Source: Jannaschia sp. Os4
GTDB taxonomy: Bacteria; Pseudomonadota; Alphaproteobacteria; Rhodobacterales; Rhodobacteraceae
DNA: 64,000 nucleotides
NCBI RefSeq assembly: GCF_016820245.1
Contig: NZ_JAFCAR010000005.1
Span: 1 to 64,000 of the forward strand
Reading direction: 5' to 3'
This document shows, one piece after another, positions 34,262 to 40,445 of the stretch; positions within the stretch are counted from its first letter, which is position 1; every line of letters begins with the position of its first letter. The notes under the pieces are model-generated. The model ran no database searches and was not told where the DNA came from. It saw nothing but the letters and a program-made list of their open reading frames with translations. The position numbers and the translations under genes were made by a program.

Positions 34262-35353
<1,092 letters not shown>

Positions 35354-35386
35354 GGCGTGACTCCGCCACGGCCGCGGCGGGCGGCT

Positions 35387-35432
35387 GTTACGGTGTAACG
35401 GGAACCGCGCCCGACGCCCGTTACAAGGTAAC
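35387..35432. promoter_or_regulatory. Two GTTAC-N3-GTAAC inverted repeats
   Basis: GTTACggtGTAAC at 35387-35399 and GTTACaagGTAAC at 35420-35432 are perfect 5-base inverted repeats with the same three-base spacer. Their centres are 33 bases apart, about three helical turns. They lie upstream of the winged-helix-Sat-CysC gene. Identical arms with different spacers and helical phasing favour cooperative binding by a dimeric regulator. Confidence 0.65.
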
Positions 35433-35465
35433 GAAACCGACCATCGGCCTTTGCGCGCGCAGAAA

Positions 35466-35535
35466 CACTGTTCTGCAGTGAACGCACTTGCGCGCCGGCC
35501 CGCGGCGCGGCAGATGCGTTCACGATTGAACGCAT
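35466..35535. promoter_or_regulatory. TGAACGCAT palindrome, extra half-site and CACTG repeat
   Basis: ATGCGTTCA (35514-35522) and TGAACGCAT (35527-35535) form a perfect 9-base inverted repeat around CGAT, 18 bases before the start codon at 35554. A further half-site TGAACGCA lies at 35479-35486, overlapping another inverted repeat, CACTG-ttctg-CAGTG at 35466-35480. This is the expected form of an autoregulatory operator for the winged-helix domain encoded just downstream. Confidence 0.65.
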
Positions 35536-35553
35536 CCGAGCCGCCCCGACCCC

Positions 35554-37617
35554 ATGCCGACCCCCGCCCTCTCCGCCGACGCCGCCGCGCGGTTCCAGCT
35601 GCTCCGCCAGCTGGACCGCGCGCCCGAGGCGTCGCAGCGCGCGACGGCGGCGGCGGTGGGCGTGTCGCTGGGGCGGCTCAACACGATGCTGCGCGCGGCG
35701 ACCGAGGCCGGGTGGGTGCGGGTCGATCCGCGCGCGTCCGAGACGGACCGCCGGGCGCGCTTCTCCTACGCGCTGACGCCGAAGGGGGCCGCCGAGAAGC
35801 GGCGGCTGGCGGATGCGTTCCTTGCCGCGAAGCTCGCGGAATACGACGCCCTCCACGCCGAACTGACCGGAACGACCTCCGGCCTCGCCATGAATGGATC
35901 CCGACCGATGCAGGACAACCTGAGCCCGATCCCCGAACTATACGTCAGCCACGAGAGCGCGCAGAAGCTGAAGCGCGAGGCGGCGGAGCTGGTCTCGTGG
36001 GACCTGACGCCGCGCCAGATCTGCGATCTGGAGTTGCTGATGAACGGCGGGTTCAACCCGCTGAAGGGCTTCCTCGACCAAGCCGACTACGAGGGCGTGG
36101 TCGAGAACATGCGCCTCGCGGACGGGACGCTCTGGCCGATGCCGATCACGCTGGACGTGTCGGAAAAGTTCGCCGAGGGGATCGAGGCGGGGCAGGACAT
36201 CGCCCTGCGCGACCAGGAGGGGGTGATCCTCGCCACACTGTCGGTGTCGTCGATCTACCGGCCCGACAAGGCGCACGAGGCCGAGAAGGTGTTCGGGGCC
36301 GACGACCTCGCCCATCCGGCGGTGAACTACCTGCACAACGTGGCGGGGCCGGTCAACCTGGGCGGGGCGATCACGGGCATCCAGCAGCCGGTCCACTACG
36401 ACTTCCGGGCGCGCCGGGACACGCCCAACGAGCTGCGCGCCTACTTCCGCAAGCTGGGCTGGCGGCGCGTCGTCGCGTTCCAGACGCGCAACCCGCTGCA
36501 CCGCGCGCACCAGGAGCTGACCTTCCGCGCCGCGCGCGAGGCGCAGGCCAACCTGCTGATCCATCCGGTCGTGGGCATGACCAAGCCGGGCGACGTGGAC
36601 CACTTCACGCGCGTGCGCTGCTACGAGGCGGTGCTGGACAAGTATCCGCAGGCCACCACGACCATGTCGCTGCTCAACCTCGCCATGCGGATGGCGGGCC
36701 CGCGCGAGGCGGTGTGGCACGGGATCATCCGCCGCAACCACGGCTGCACCCACATGATCGTGGGTCGCGACCATGCGGGGCCGGGCAAGAACAGCGCGGG
36801 CGAGGACTTCTACGGCCCCTACGACGCGCAGGACCTGTTCCGCGAGCACGAGTCCGAGATCGGCGTCGAGATGGTCGACTTCAAGCACATGGTCTACGTG
36901 CAGGAGCGCGCGCAGTACGAGCCCGCCGACGAGATCGAGGACCGCGACGACGTCACGATCTTGAACATCTCCGGAACGGAGCTGCGCCGCCGCCTGCGCG
37001 AGGGGCTGGAGATCCCCGAGTGGTTCTCCTTCCCGGAGGTCGTAAAGGAGCTGCGCCGCACCTCGCCGCCGCGCGCGCAGCAGGGCTTCACGGTGTTCTT
37101 CACGGGGCTGTCGGGGTCGGGCAAGTCGACCATCGCGAACGCGATCATGGTCAAGCTGATGGAGATGGGCGGGCGTCCCGTCACGCTGCTGGACGGGGAC
37201 ATCGTGCGCAAGCACCTGTCGAGCGAGCTGACCTTCTCGAAGGAGCACCGGGACATCAACATCCGGCGCATCGGCTACGTCGCCTCCGAGATCACCAAGA
37301 ACGGCGGCATCGCCATCTGCGCGCCCATCGCGCCCTACACCGCCACGCGGCGCGCGGCGCGCGAGATGATCGAGGCCTACGGCGCCTTCGTGGAGGTCCA
37401 TGTCGCCACCTCGCTGGAGGAGTGCGAGCGGCGCGACCGCAAGGGGCTCTACGCGCTGGCGCGGGCCGGCAAGATCCCGGAGTTCACGGGCATCTCCGAT
37501 CCCTACGAGGCGCCGACGCAGGCGGAACTGGTGGTCGACACCGAGGGGGCCGAGGTCGACAACTGCGCGCAGCAGGTGCTGCTGAAGCTGGAGTCGATGG
37601 GGCTGATCTCGGGCTAG
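35554..37617 (+). CDS. Winged-helix (MarR-type) domain fused to sulfate adenylyltransferase/APS kinase
   Basis: One uninterrupted 687-residue frame. Residues 1-110 are a MarR-like winged helix of the 'EPS-associated' type (QRATAAAVGVSLGRLNTML; LTPKGAAEKRRL). From about residue 119 comes a full bifunctional Sat-CysC: PIPELYVSHESAQKLK, PLKGFL, the ATP-sulfurylase QTRNPLHRAHQEL and GRDHAGPGK loops, then APS kinase with GLSGSGKST, LLDGDIVRKHLS, and VATSLEECERRDRKGLY. Together these convert sulfate and ATP to PAPS. An internal ATG at 35908 would yield exactly the normal 569-residue enzyme, and ATG 35890 is another option. In relatives the regulator and enzyme are normally separate genes; here no stop divides them. 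Either a fused product, two nested products, or both are possible. Operator-like repeats lie upstream. Confidence 0.9.
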   Translation: MPTPALSADAAARFQLLRQLDRAPEASQRATAAAVGVSLGRLNTMLRAATEAGWVRVDPRASETDRRARFSYALTPKGAAEKRRLADAFLAAKLAEYDALHAELTGTTSGLAMNGSRPMQDNLSPIPELYVSHESAQKLKREAAELVSWDLTPRQICDLELLMNGGFNPLKGFLDQADYEGVVENMRLADGTLWPMPITLDVSEKFAEGIEAGQDIALRDQEGVILATLSVSSIYRPDKAHEAEKVFGADDLAHPAVNYLHNVAGPVNLGGAITGIQQPVHYDFRARRDTPNELRAYFRKLGWRRVVAFQTRNPLHRAHQELTFRAAREAQANLLIHPVVGMTKPGDVDHFTRVRCYEAVLDKYPQATTTMSLLNLAMRMAGPREAVWHGIIRRNHGCTHMIVGRDHAGPGKNSAGEDFYGPYDAQDLFREHESEIGVEMVDFKHMVYVQERAQYEPADEIEDRDDVTILNISGTELRRRLREGLEIPEWFSFPEVVKELRRTSPPRAQQGFTVFFTGLSGSGKSTIANAIMVKLMEMGGRPVTLLDGDIVRKHLSSELTFSKEHRDINIRRIGYVASEITKNGGIAICAPIAPYTATRRAAREMIEAYGAFVEVHVATSLEECERRDRKGLYALARAGKIPEFTGISDPYEAPTQAELVVDTEGAEVDNCAQQVLLKLESMGLISG

Positions 37618-37825: not shown

Positions 37826-38644
37826 TCAGGACTTGGCGAGGTCGTCGAAGGCCTTGAGGCGGGCGATCACGGCCGGCATCTCGTCGAGCGGGATCATGTT
37901 GGGGCCGTCCGAGGGGGCCCGGTCGGGATCCTCGTGCGCCTCCATGAAGATGGCCGCCACGCCCACGGCGAGGGCCGCGCGGGCGAGGACGGGCGCGTAT
38001 TCGCGCTGGCCGCCGGAGGACGTGCCTTGGCCGCCGGGCTGCTGGACGGAGTGGGTGGCGTCGAACACCACCGGGTAGCCGGTCCGGGCCATGCGGGGCA
38101 GGGCGCGCATGTCGGACACCAGCGTGTTGTAGCCGAAGGAGGTGCCGCGCTCGCAGAGCAGGATGCGCGCGTTGCCCGTCGACGCGATCTTGGCGGCGAC
38201 GTTGTCCATGTCCCACGGGGCGAGGAACTGGCCCTTCTTGACGTTGATGGCCGCGCCGGTCGAGCCCGCCGCGAGCAGGAGGTCGGTCTGGCGGGAGAGG
38301 AAGGCGGGAATCTGGAGGACGTCGACGGCCTCGGCCGCCGGGGCGCAGTGGTCGGGGAGGTGGACGTCCGTCAGGGTGGGGACGCCGTAGTCGGCGCCGA
38401 TGTCCTGCAGGATGCGGAGCCCCTCCTCCATGCCGATGCCGCGCTGGGCCGCGCCCGAGGAGCGGTTCGCCTTGTCGTAGGACGACTTGTAGATCAGCGG
38501 GACGCCGAGCCCCTCGCAGATCTCCTTGAGGCGGGCGGCGGTGGCGCGGGCGTGGTCGCGCGACTCGATCTGGCAGGGGCCGGCGATGAGGGCGAAGGGC
38601 CGGTCCTGCGCGATCTCGACGTCGCGGATGGTGACGGTGGTCAT
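37826..38644 (-). CDS. kdsA: 3-deoxy-8-phosphooctulonate synthase KdsA
   Basis: A 272-residue KdsA. It contains [14 protein letters not shown], the [11 protein letters not shown] substrate loop, [21 protein letters not shown] and [11 protein letters not shown]. It condenses arabinose-5-phosphate with PEP to Kdo-8-phosphate for lipopolysaccharide or capsule. The ATG overlaps the kdsB stop (ATGA), so the two are translationally coupled. It is the last gene of a three-gene Kdo operon on the minus strand; no kdsC phosphatase gene is included. Confidence 0.96.
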
Positions 38645-39435
38645 CGGTTCAGGACCTCCTCGATGCGGGCCACGTCGGCGGGGTTGTTGAGCTCCCAGAA
38701 CACGCGGCCCGCGCCGTCCACCTCGACGCAGCGGATGGTGCGGCCGTGCTCGAGGAAGCGGAGCTGCTCGAGCCCCTCGTGGGCCTCCAGCGCGCCGGGG
38801 GGCAGGGCGGCGTAGGCGGCGAGCGCGGCGGGGGTGTAGGCGTAGAGGCCGACGTGATGGAATACGTCCCTCCACCCGTCCGCCGCGATGGCGGCGTCCG
38901 AGAGGTAGGGGACGACCTCCTTGGAGAAGTAGAGGGCGCGGTAGTCGGCGCCGAACACCGCCGTGGTACCGCCGACGCGGCCCGCCGCGCGGTCCTCGCG
39001 GAAGTGGCGGTAGGTGGTGGCGTCGCAGCGCAGCACAGGGGTGGCGACGTCGGCCTCGCCGTCGCGCATGGCGTCCACGAGGGCGGTGACGAAGCCGGGG
39101 GGCGTCAGCGGGGCGTCGCCTTGGAGGTTGACGACGAGGTCGACGTCCATGGCCGCCGCCGCCTCGGCGCAGCGCTCGGTGCCGTTGGCCGCGTCGGGGG
39201 AGGTCATGGCGACGGCGGCGCCGAAGCCCCTCGCGTGCTCGGCGATGCCGTCGTGGTCGGTGGCGACGGCGACGGTGACCTCGTCGTCCGGCAGGCGGGC
39301 GGCGGCCTGCCGCGCGGCCTCCCATGCGCGGCGGATCAGGGACTTGGCGCCGTCGGGGCCGCGCAGCTCGACCAGCGGCTTGCCGGGGTAGCGGGTGGAG
39401 GCGTGGCGGGCGGGGATCAGGATGGCGACGCGCAT
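38641..39435 (-). CDS. kdsB: CMP-Kdo synthetase KdsB
   Basis: A 264-residue nucleotidyltransferase with [20 protein letters not shown] at the start, VNLQGDAPL carrying the metal-binding Asp, and [16 protein letters not shown] in the C-terminal half. It activates Kdo as CMP-Kdo. The usual QGDEP is QGDAP here, a minor deviation. The start forms a TGATG overlap with the stop of the isomerase gene upstream, and its own stop overlaps kdsA. The gene order isomerase - kdsB - kdsA makes one pathway unit. Confidence 0.92.
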
Positions 39436-40445
39436 CACACGACCCCCGCGCGGAGGCAGTCGAGGATGCGGATGAGGCCCACGGGGCGCCCCGCCTCGGC
39501 AACGATCAGCACGGTGATCTTGCGCTCCTGCATCAGCCGCACGGCGTCGGCGGCGAGGGTGTCGGGGGTCACGGTGACGGGGTCGCGGGTGGCGACCTCG
39601 CCGGCGGTGCGGTCGAGCAGGCCGTCGATGCGGCGGCGCAGGTCGCCGTCGGTTATGACCCCAGCGAGGGTGCCGTCGGGGGCGGCGACGATGGCGATGC
39701 CGAAGCCCTTGGCCGAGACCTCGACGATGGTGTCGCCCATGGGCGCGTCCTCGCCGACGACGGGGGACTCGGCGGCGGGGATCATCAGGTCGCCCACCCG
39801 CTTGAGCCGGGCGCCGAGCTTGCCGCCGGGGTGGAACGTGCCGAAGTCCTCGGGGCGCATGCCGCGCCGCTCCATCACCGCGACGGCGAGGGCGTCGCCG
39901 AGGGCGAGGGTCATGGTCGTCGACGTGGTGGGCGCCATGCCGATGGGGCAGGCCTCCGGCGCGTCGGGGAGCAGCAGGAGGTGGGTCGCCGCGCGCGCCA
40001 AGGTGCTGTCGGGGCGGCGGCAGATCGCGACGATGGGCACGTCGAAGCGGCGGCAATGGGCGATCAGGTCGCCCAGCTCCGTGGTCTCGCCGGAATTGGA
40101 GATCAGCACGCAGACGTCGCGCGATGTCACCATGCCGAGGTCGCCGTGGGACGCCTCGCCGGGGTGGACGAACTGCGCGGGCGTGCCGGTGGAGGCCAAG
40201 GTGGCGGCGATCTTGCGGCCGACATGGCCGGACTTGCCCATGCCCGAGACGATGGCGCGGCCCCCGGCCTCGACGCCGAGCAGCAGGTCGACCGCGTCCG
40301 CGAAGGCAGGCGGGATCCGGTCCGCGAGGGCGAGCACGGCCTCCCCCTCGGTCCGCAGGACGCGGGCGGCGGCGGCCTCGGCCATCCGGGCGTCCGACGG
40401 GGGGCCGGACGGCATCTCGGACGGGGACGGGGCGGGTCGGGCCAT
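39435..40445 (-). CDS. kdsD: Arabinose-5-phosphate isomerase (KdsD/KpsF)
   Basis: A 336-residue protein with an N-terminal SIS sugar-isomerase domain, about residues 45-190 ([31 protein letters not shown]), and two C-terminal CBS domains (for example [12 protein letters not shown]). It interconverts ribulose-5-phosphate and arabinose-5-phosphate, the first step to Kdo. An Ala/Pro-rich leader of about 15 residues precedes the conserved part. The gene begins the Kdo operon. Whether it serves lipid A-core or a capsule (KdsD versus KpsF) cannot be told here. Confidence 0.94.

Follow-up and report, generated by a model that had tools for sequence, protein, structure and literature searches.

A MarR_EPS-like DNA-binding head fused to the PAPS-forming enzyme Sat-CysC in Rhodobacteraceae: a candidate self-regulating enzyme with a conserved internal start

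The locus and its product

The window, by which we mean the whole stretch of DNA analysed, comprises 64,000 nt of Jannaschia sp. Os4 (assembly GCF_016820245.1, contig NZ_JAFCAR010000005.1, positions 1 to 64,000, forward strand). Positions 35554-37617 on the plus strand form a single open frame of 687 codons followed by a stop, in which a winged-helix head, a short linker and a complete Sat-CysC succeed one another. The features of the locus are listed in Table 1. A preliminary description of this DNA had proposed that a regulator is fused in frame to Sat-CysC, and the uninterrupted frame together with matches to TIGR04176, HTH_24 and NF004040 bears this out. The start and length that it gave for the enzyme are correct, the full product being 687 residues long.

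Table 1. Features of the fused locus, in window coordinates
Feature	Position	Strand	Basis
trxB-like gene, conserved upstream neighbour	34337..35353	+	ORF; named by eye
Distal operator-like box GTTCTGCAGTGAAC	35470..35483		box pattern in upstream region
Proximal operator GTTCACGATTGAAC	35518..35531		exact GTTCANNNNTGAAC; arms reach TGCGTTCA....TGAACGCA
MarR_EPS-like winged-helix head, residues 1-106	35554..35871	+	TIGR04176, HTH_24, AlphaFold head, pN/pS
Linker, residues 107-118, 12 codons	35872..35907	+	alignment; model pLDDT
GGA where relatives have the AGG of the hidden Shine-Dalgarno	35896..35898	+	alignment; anti-SD energy
Sat-CysC, 569 aa, from internal ATG	35908..37617	+	NF004040, PF14306, PF01747, PF01583
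ATP sulfurylase part of Sat-CysC	about 35929-37059	+	family matches
APS kinase part of Sat-CysC	about 37081-37539	+	family matches

The TIGR04176 (MarR_EPS) profile covers residues 11-105 of the window protein with a score of 82.3 bits (E 2e-23) and Pfam HTH_24 covers residues 13-56. The former score lies below the curated cut-off of 88 bits and for this reason we describe the head as MarR_EPS-like and do not file it as a member of TIGR04176. All 47 aligned fused proteins match the same profile, with E values of up to 0.001 and a best value of 3e-27. In the AlphaFold model the head consists of helices at residues 8-22, 28-35 and 39-51, strands at 55-59 and 70-74 that create a two-strand wing, and a last helix of 30 residues (76-105). 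The block-mean pLDDT is 73-92 over residues 11-110, except for a value of 58 at 61-70, the wing loop. The head is thus predicted to be a winged helix-turn-helix domain. Four residues located at the predicted recognition helix, Ser38, Leu39, Gly40 and Asn43, are invariant in the 47 aligned proteins. The linker is disordered in the model, with pLDDT below 50 at residues 113-134. Since the model of the whole protein is poor (mean pLDDT 71.3, pTM 0.43), the body included, the predicted structure was used for the head only.

The Sat-CysC family model NF004040 covers residues 118-686, the body being residues 119-687, and scores 1041 bits against a cut-off of 669; the match runs over positions 5-571 of the 572 in the model, and the body is by score a family member over nearly the full length. 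By eye the P-loop, GLSGSGKST, is intact and so the kinase is probably active. Matches to solved structures (2gks, 3cr8 and 1i2d) are confined to this body, the best by sequence being the ATP sulfurylase 1i2d, which we take to be the fungal enzyme.

On the minus strand of the window KdsA-, KdsB- and KpsF-like genes, named by eye, occupy about 37826-40445 and run towards the fused gene. Among the loci searched, the window alone has a KdsA homologue near sat.

Comparative samples

The family survey covered 394 Rhodobacteraceae genomes from 393 genera, the window genome included. A first set of relatives held the best 80 of 558 loci, a selection that favours fused loci. The headless set derives from 62 lower-scoring loci among the matches listed, 61 of which encode Sat-CysC with no head, the remaining one (G296) being a fusion. 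Classification of loci is based on n = 230 (169 fused, 61 headless), which are related and do not represent independent cases. Internal starts and a looser operator pattern were counted in 153 unique fused loci, whilst the exact operator was compared in approximately one genome per genus, 88 fused versus 61 headless loci. Codon and pN/pS statistics refer to 143 aligned fused genes, with pN/pS calculated over 400 random pairs.

Distribution and history of the fusion

The fusion occurs in 91 of the 394 genomes, comprising 88 canonical cases (the window included), G296, and two genomes (G032 and G381) where it runs into a contig end. Read-through is in frame in 80 of 80 loci of the first set, the best 80 of 558 and a list that favours fused loci; genera represented there include Nioella, Shimia, Phaeobacter, Leisingera, Roseovarius and Tateyamaria. 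An overlapping sample of the order has the fusion in 47 of 121 genomes. In a sample of the class (337 genomes) only two heads were found in frames longer than 600 aa among the matches listed, both in Rhodobacteraceae. The arrangement is therefore widespread, and as detailed below under selection, where it had been presented as unusual among relatives. The preliminary description had also suggested alignment with homologues to see whether the regulator's stop is missing elsewhere, and had named a frameshift or missed stop as a refutation; no such slip is indicated. With the same fusion in 91 of 394 genomes and no point found in its favour, a sequencing or assembly artefact is refuted by the comparative data and its probability is negligible.

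The head is dispensable, as within the window's genus only two of five genomes carry the fusion (G000 and G418) and the other three (G310, G429 and G416) are headless. As judged from flanks of limited length, 109 of 169 fused and 36 of 61 headless loci have a trxB homologue, and every trxB match is placed upstream in the same orientation. It follows that fused and headless states occupy one shared locus, a relationship that extends to the window's genus (fused G418, headless G310 and G429).

Are the two parts adjacent but separate genes in related organisms, as had been stated? No head homologue was detected within 0.7-1.7 kb upstream of the headless Sat-CysC in any of the 61 loci. A head-only search of the 394 genomes gave, among the matches listed, 90 heads of at least 93 bits, of which 88 are in frames of at least 690 aa and two are those cut by contig ends; heads of at most 84 bits among the matches listed belong to frames of 119-335 aa, apart from G296. 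One adjacent but separate pair was seen, in G405 (L267, 5997-8291). There a separate MarR_EPS-like gene of 107 aa, with its own GTTCAACTGTGAAC box upstream, precedes an additional sat-cysC copy located away from trxB. The regulator of this pair is a more distant paralogue (47% identical). For close relatives we reject the statement on the evidence of the 61 headless loci and of the close heads among the matches listed, although the G405 pair is a possible picture of the state before fusion.

In a tree of heads (72 fused, 24 free) the fused heads tested fall on one side with support of 96. On the enzyme tree the head state requires 37 changes, as against 47 when labels are shuffled; at least seven of the 37 are imposed by supported branches. 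The simplest account of the distribution is one gain and many losses, with transfer as an alternative. G296 (L295, from about position 2098) is probably a second, separate fusion. A distant MarR_EPS-like head is joined to Sat-CysC in a protein of 702 aa and the familiar order recurs: two operator boxes, the head, GAGAGGA before an internal ATG, then Sat-CysC. The contig, 4.7 kb long, showed no trxB homologue. The G296 head is distant from the others on a long branch, but in the tree this branch groups with the fused heads, so that an independent origin is probable rather than certain.

An operator that accompanies the head

The inverted repeat GTTCANNNNTGAAC precedes the head start, with a median gap of 19 nt between its end and the start codon. 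The exact sequence is present in 87 of 88 fused loci and in none of the 61 headless loci; the single fused exception, L108, has GTTCG instead of GTTCA. A looser pattern is found in 152 of 153 unique fused loci, the miss being at a contig edge, as opposed to 2 of 61 headless loci. Comparison of seven independent pairs on supported branches shows the operator tracking the head or tying, and never doing the opposite (median p 0.016). On account of this near-perfect co-occurrence and of the position just before the head start, self-targeting of the head is well supported at the level of sequence.

Of 151 fused loci, 38 have a second GTTCN6GAAC box no more than 90 nt upstream, with 32 or 47-49 nt the commonest spacing; in the window the distal box is 48 nt from the proximal operator. 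Common to the relatives are TG..ATGT immediately in front of the left operator arm and, farther upstream, a CTTT block. The TG..AT block resembles a -10 element, and the region may be read as a promoter under the box. A sigma-70 consensus promoter was sought at 35340-35620 of the window and none was detected. Since the operator abuts the -10-like block in relatives, repression of the gene appears likely. The preliminary description had suggested a metabolic sensor that represses its own promoter; the self-targeting part stands, the sign of the effect is likely as proposed, and the enzyme may act as a sensor.

The box appears tied to the MarR_EPS family of regulators rather than to Sat-CysC, because the exact sequence also precedes free-standing members. 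It lies within 250 nt upstream of 10 of 24 such genes and is absent from 14; a further gene, in G265, has an exact box 116 nt before its start, making 11 of 25 in total.

Does the fused head control more than its own gene? Two exact sites are present in the window genome, one of them at the sat promoter, and the sat promoter holds the sole exact site in 5 of 30 fused genomes; these figures, which refer to exact sites only, bear on whether the fused protein is a single-target regulator. The other site in the window genome (G000:C1:103349-103362; L232 1501-1514) falls between rluD-like and rpoH-like genes, named by eye. As the headless congener G310 has a similar site, we do not count it as a regulatory target. 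Genome-wide there are 105 exact sites in 30 fused and 111 in 30 headless genomes, with 26 and 21, respectively, for a reversed control pattern. Both groups of genomes hold sites above the control level that the fused head does not explain, and a regulon beyond the head's own promoter was rejected as exact sites are not in excess in fused genomes.

Two GTTACNNNGTAAC inverted repeats are placed between trxB and the operator of the window, at 35387-35399 and 35420-35432. Six such sites occur in the genome and none in four congener stretches. The repeats were left out of the system since, of 144 fused loci, only the window has them; they are perhaps sites of another regulator.

A second start hidden in the linker

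In 150 of 153 unique fused loci an AGG codon is positioned exactly 9 nt before the internal start, which is ATG in 141 of these, GTG in eight and TTG in one; an A follows the AGG in 148 of the 150. AGG is a rare arginine codon, accounting for 46 of 7465 other arginine codons in the 143 fused genes, and it appears to supply a Shine-Dalgarno core inside the linker. The exceptions are the window, with GGA in the same place, L216 (CGG then A) and the separate fusion L160 (GAGAGGA nearby). A match of at least 4 nt to the Shine-Dalgarno sequence precedes 8 of 146 head starts as against 150 of 153 internal starts. A conserved start codon with a Shine-Dalgarno sequence in front of it, the mark of a gene with an in-frame internal start, is thus present in 150 of 153 unique fused loci, the window being one of the three exceptions.

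Median anti-SD energies are -4.0 kcal/mol at the internal start, -2.2 at the head start and -3.0 at the Sat starts of headless loci. The median for 2015 other in-frame ATGs is -1.8 kcal/mol, and 17% of these score equally well. In the window the internal start has -3.1 kcal/mol, compared to the median of -4.0. The second start thus seems to be a feature of the family that is weakened in the window genome. The conservation of these signals suggests that both the long and the plain products are made from fused genes, and with a weaker internal site the short form may be scarcer in the window lineage. The preliminary description had offered peptides only from the enzyme starting at 35908 as a refutation; given the conserved internal start, detecting the short form would not on its own disprove the fusion.

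Proposed mechanism and alternatives

The fusion, its spread, the link between operator and head and the conserved internal start signals are results computed from the sequences compared. Our interpretation, to which we assign a probability of about 0.7, is that the locus encodes a self-regulating PAPS-forming 'trigger enzyme', most likely an autorepressor, made with and without its DNA-binding head. With an enzyme and a DNA-binding domain in one polypeptide the product has, as far as sequence can tell, the make-up of a trigger enzyme. The 687-aa product would dimerize through the MarR_EPS-like head, which would bind the GTTCANNNNTGAAC boxes overlapping its own promoter and most likely repress the gene at the level of transcription. 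What the Sat-CysC body has bound, whether substrate, APS or PAPS, probably tunes DNA binding, such that the body would report on sulfate activation. The ribosome-binding site in the linker probably starts plain Sat-CysC from 35908 and would provide enzyme without adding repressor. In filamentous fungi, according to the excerpts of PMC3779200 available, the kinase-like domain of ATP sulfurylase binds PAPS as an allosteric inhibitor, and on this analogy PAPS is a reasonable candidate for the ligand.

Selection on the parts of the gene informs on whether the fusion itself matters. Values of pN/pS are 0.30 for the head core (residues 14-106), 0.58 for the linker and 0.15 for the body (400 random pairs of the 143 genes), which points to purifying selection on the head. 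It might be argued that the gene is a relic of two, the head having lost its stop codon, with the long protein tolerated as a by-product and the working enzyme translated from the internal start only; the head might then still regulate, and the fusion would have no purpose. Such an origin fits the two ribosome-binding sites, of which the internal one is the stronger, the variable linker implied by its pN/pS, the headless relatives and the adjacent but separate pair of MarR_EPS and sat-cysC genes in G405. Yet in none of the 230 loci classified is there a nearby head with a stop or a shifted frame before Sat, despite heavy divergence at synonymous sites of the linker (pS 0.63), and shuffled linkers remain open in only 61% of cases. 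The linker is also 14 codons long in 141 of 143 aligned genes (12 in the window). We judge a purposeless relic unlikely. A stop-free linker is too weak to serve as proof of fusion on its own, since 51 of 61 headless loci are open over the 14 codons upstream as well.

Activation in place of repression is a little less probable again. The sign of regulation is unreadable from sequence, and the distal box in 38 of 151 fused loci could suit an activator. Against it, the proximal box abuts the -10-like block at a median of 19 nt before the start, where binding normally blocks polymerase, and the headless orthologues possess neither head nor box. That the head has lost DNA binding to become a structural or allosteric domain of the enzyme we regard as improbable. 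The C-terminal helix of the head (residues 96-106, EYDALHAELTG) is very conserved and, in the part of PMC3779200 available, it is suggested that plant ATP sulfurylase has a longer N-terminal arm which influences oligomers; but the invariance of Ser38, Leu39, Gly40 and Asn43 at the predicted recognition helix, and the absence of the operator wherever the head is missing, argue for a head that binds DNA. An attempt to identify residues of the body in contact with the head, by comparing fused and headless bodies, was abandoned. The greatest contrast between the two groups comes from an alignment gap in the start region, and the two that follow (0.372 and 0.360) are barely above the maximum of 0.349 obtained by shuffling labels.

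Returning to the self-regulating enzyme, we can extend the proposal, although the extended form is tentative and on balance we would not bet on it. One gene might make two products in balance, enzyme with a repressor head from the first start and free enzyme from the internal start, and the two could co-assemble. How many heads an oligomer carries would then depend on translation and on the binding of APS or PAPS to the body, and would give direct feedback on sulfate activation. Rhodobacteraceae would have acquired this system once or twice and lost it, operator included, on many occasions.

If the interpretation is correct, control of sulfate activation lies with the enzyme itself, acting at a defined operator, in many roseobacters and related bacteria. 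The many lineages that lack head and operator alike would then offer a natural experiment on how feedback is gained and lost. With a conserved ribosome-binding site hidden in the gene, annotation with a single start would miss one of two likely products.

Comparison with known systems

Among the matches listed, the titles and opening lines of abstracts of openly licensed PMC papers contain no description of a MarR-Sat-CysC fusion, and in the part of PMC5343134 available neither 'sat' nor 'cysC' occurs.

MarR_EPS regulators, as their name implies, would usually lie near polysaccharide genes. The fused heads resemble the TIGR04176 regulators in matching that model (47 of 47) and in sharing the exact operator with 11 of 25 free-standing members. 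The model, of about 105 positions, describes a stand-alone regulator whereas here the head is attached to an enzyme. With bifunctional Sat-CysC (NF004040) the protein shares a full-length body, and it is this body alone that the solved structures 2gks and 3cr8 match.

Enzymes that double as transcription factors include BirA, which represses the bio operon, and NadR (PMC6978683, PMC8249747). In the excerpts of these papers available they are described as multi-target regulators, whereas the site seen to recur with the fused Sat-CysC is at its own promoter. The closest described case is PutA of E. coli, a trigger enzyme that, as given in the excerpts available, binds only the spacer at its own gene and is a single-target regulator (PMC8249747). 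Common to both is the combination of an enzyme and a DNA-binding domain in one polypeptide. Unlike PutA, the fused Sat-CysC serves sulfate activation, draws its DNA-binding domain from a MarR_EPS-like family and has a conserved internal start that would yield a head-free enzyme.
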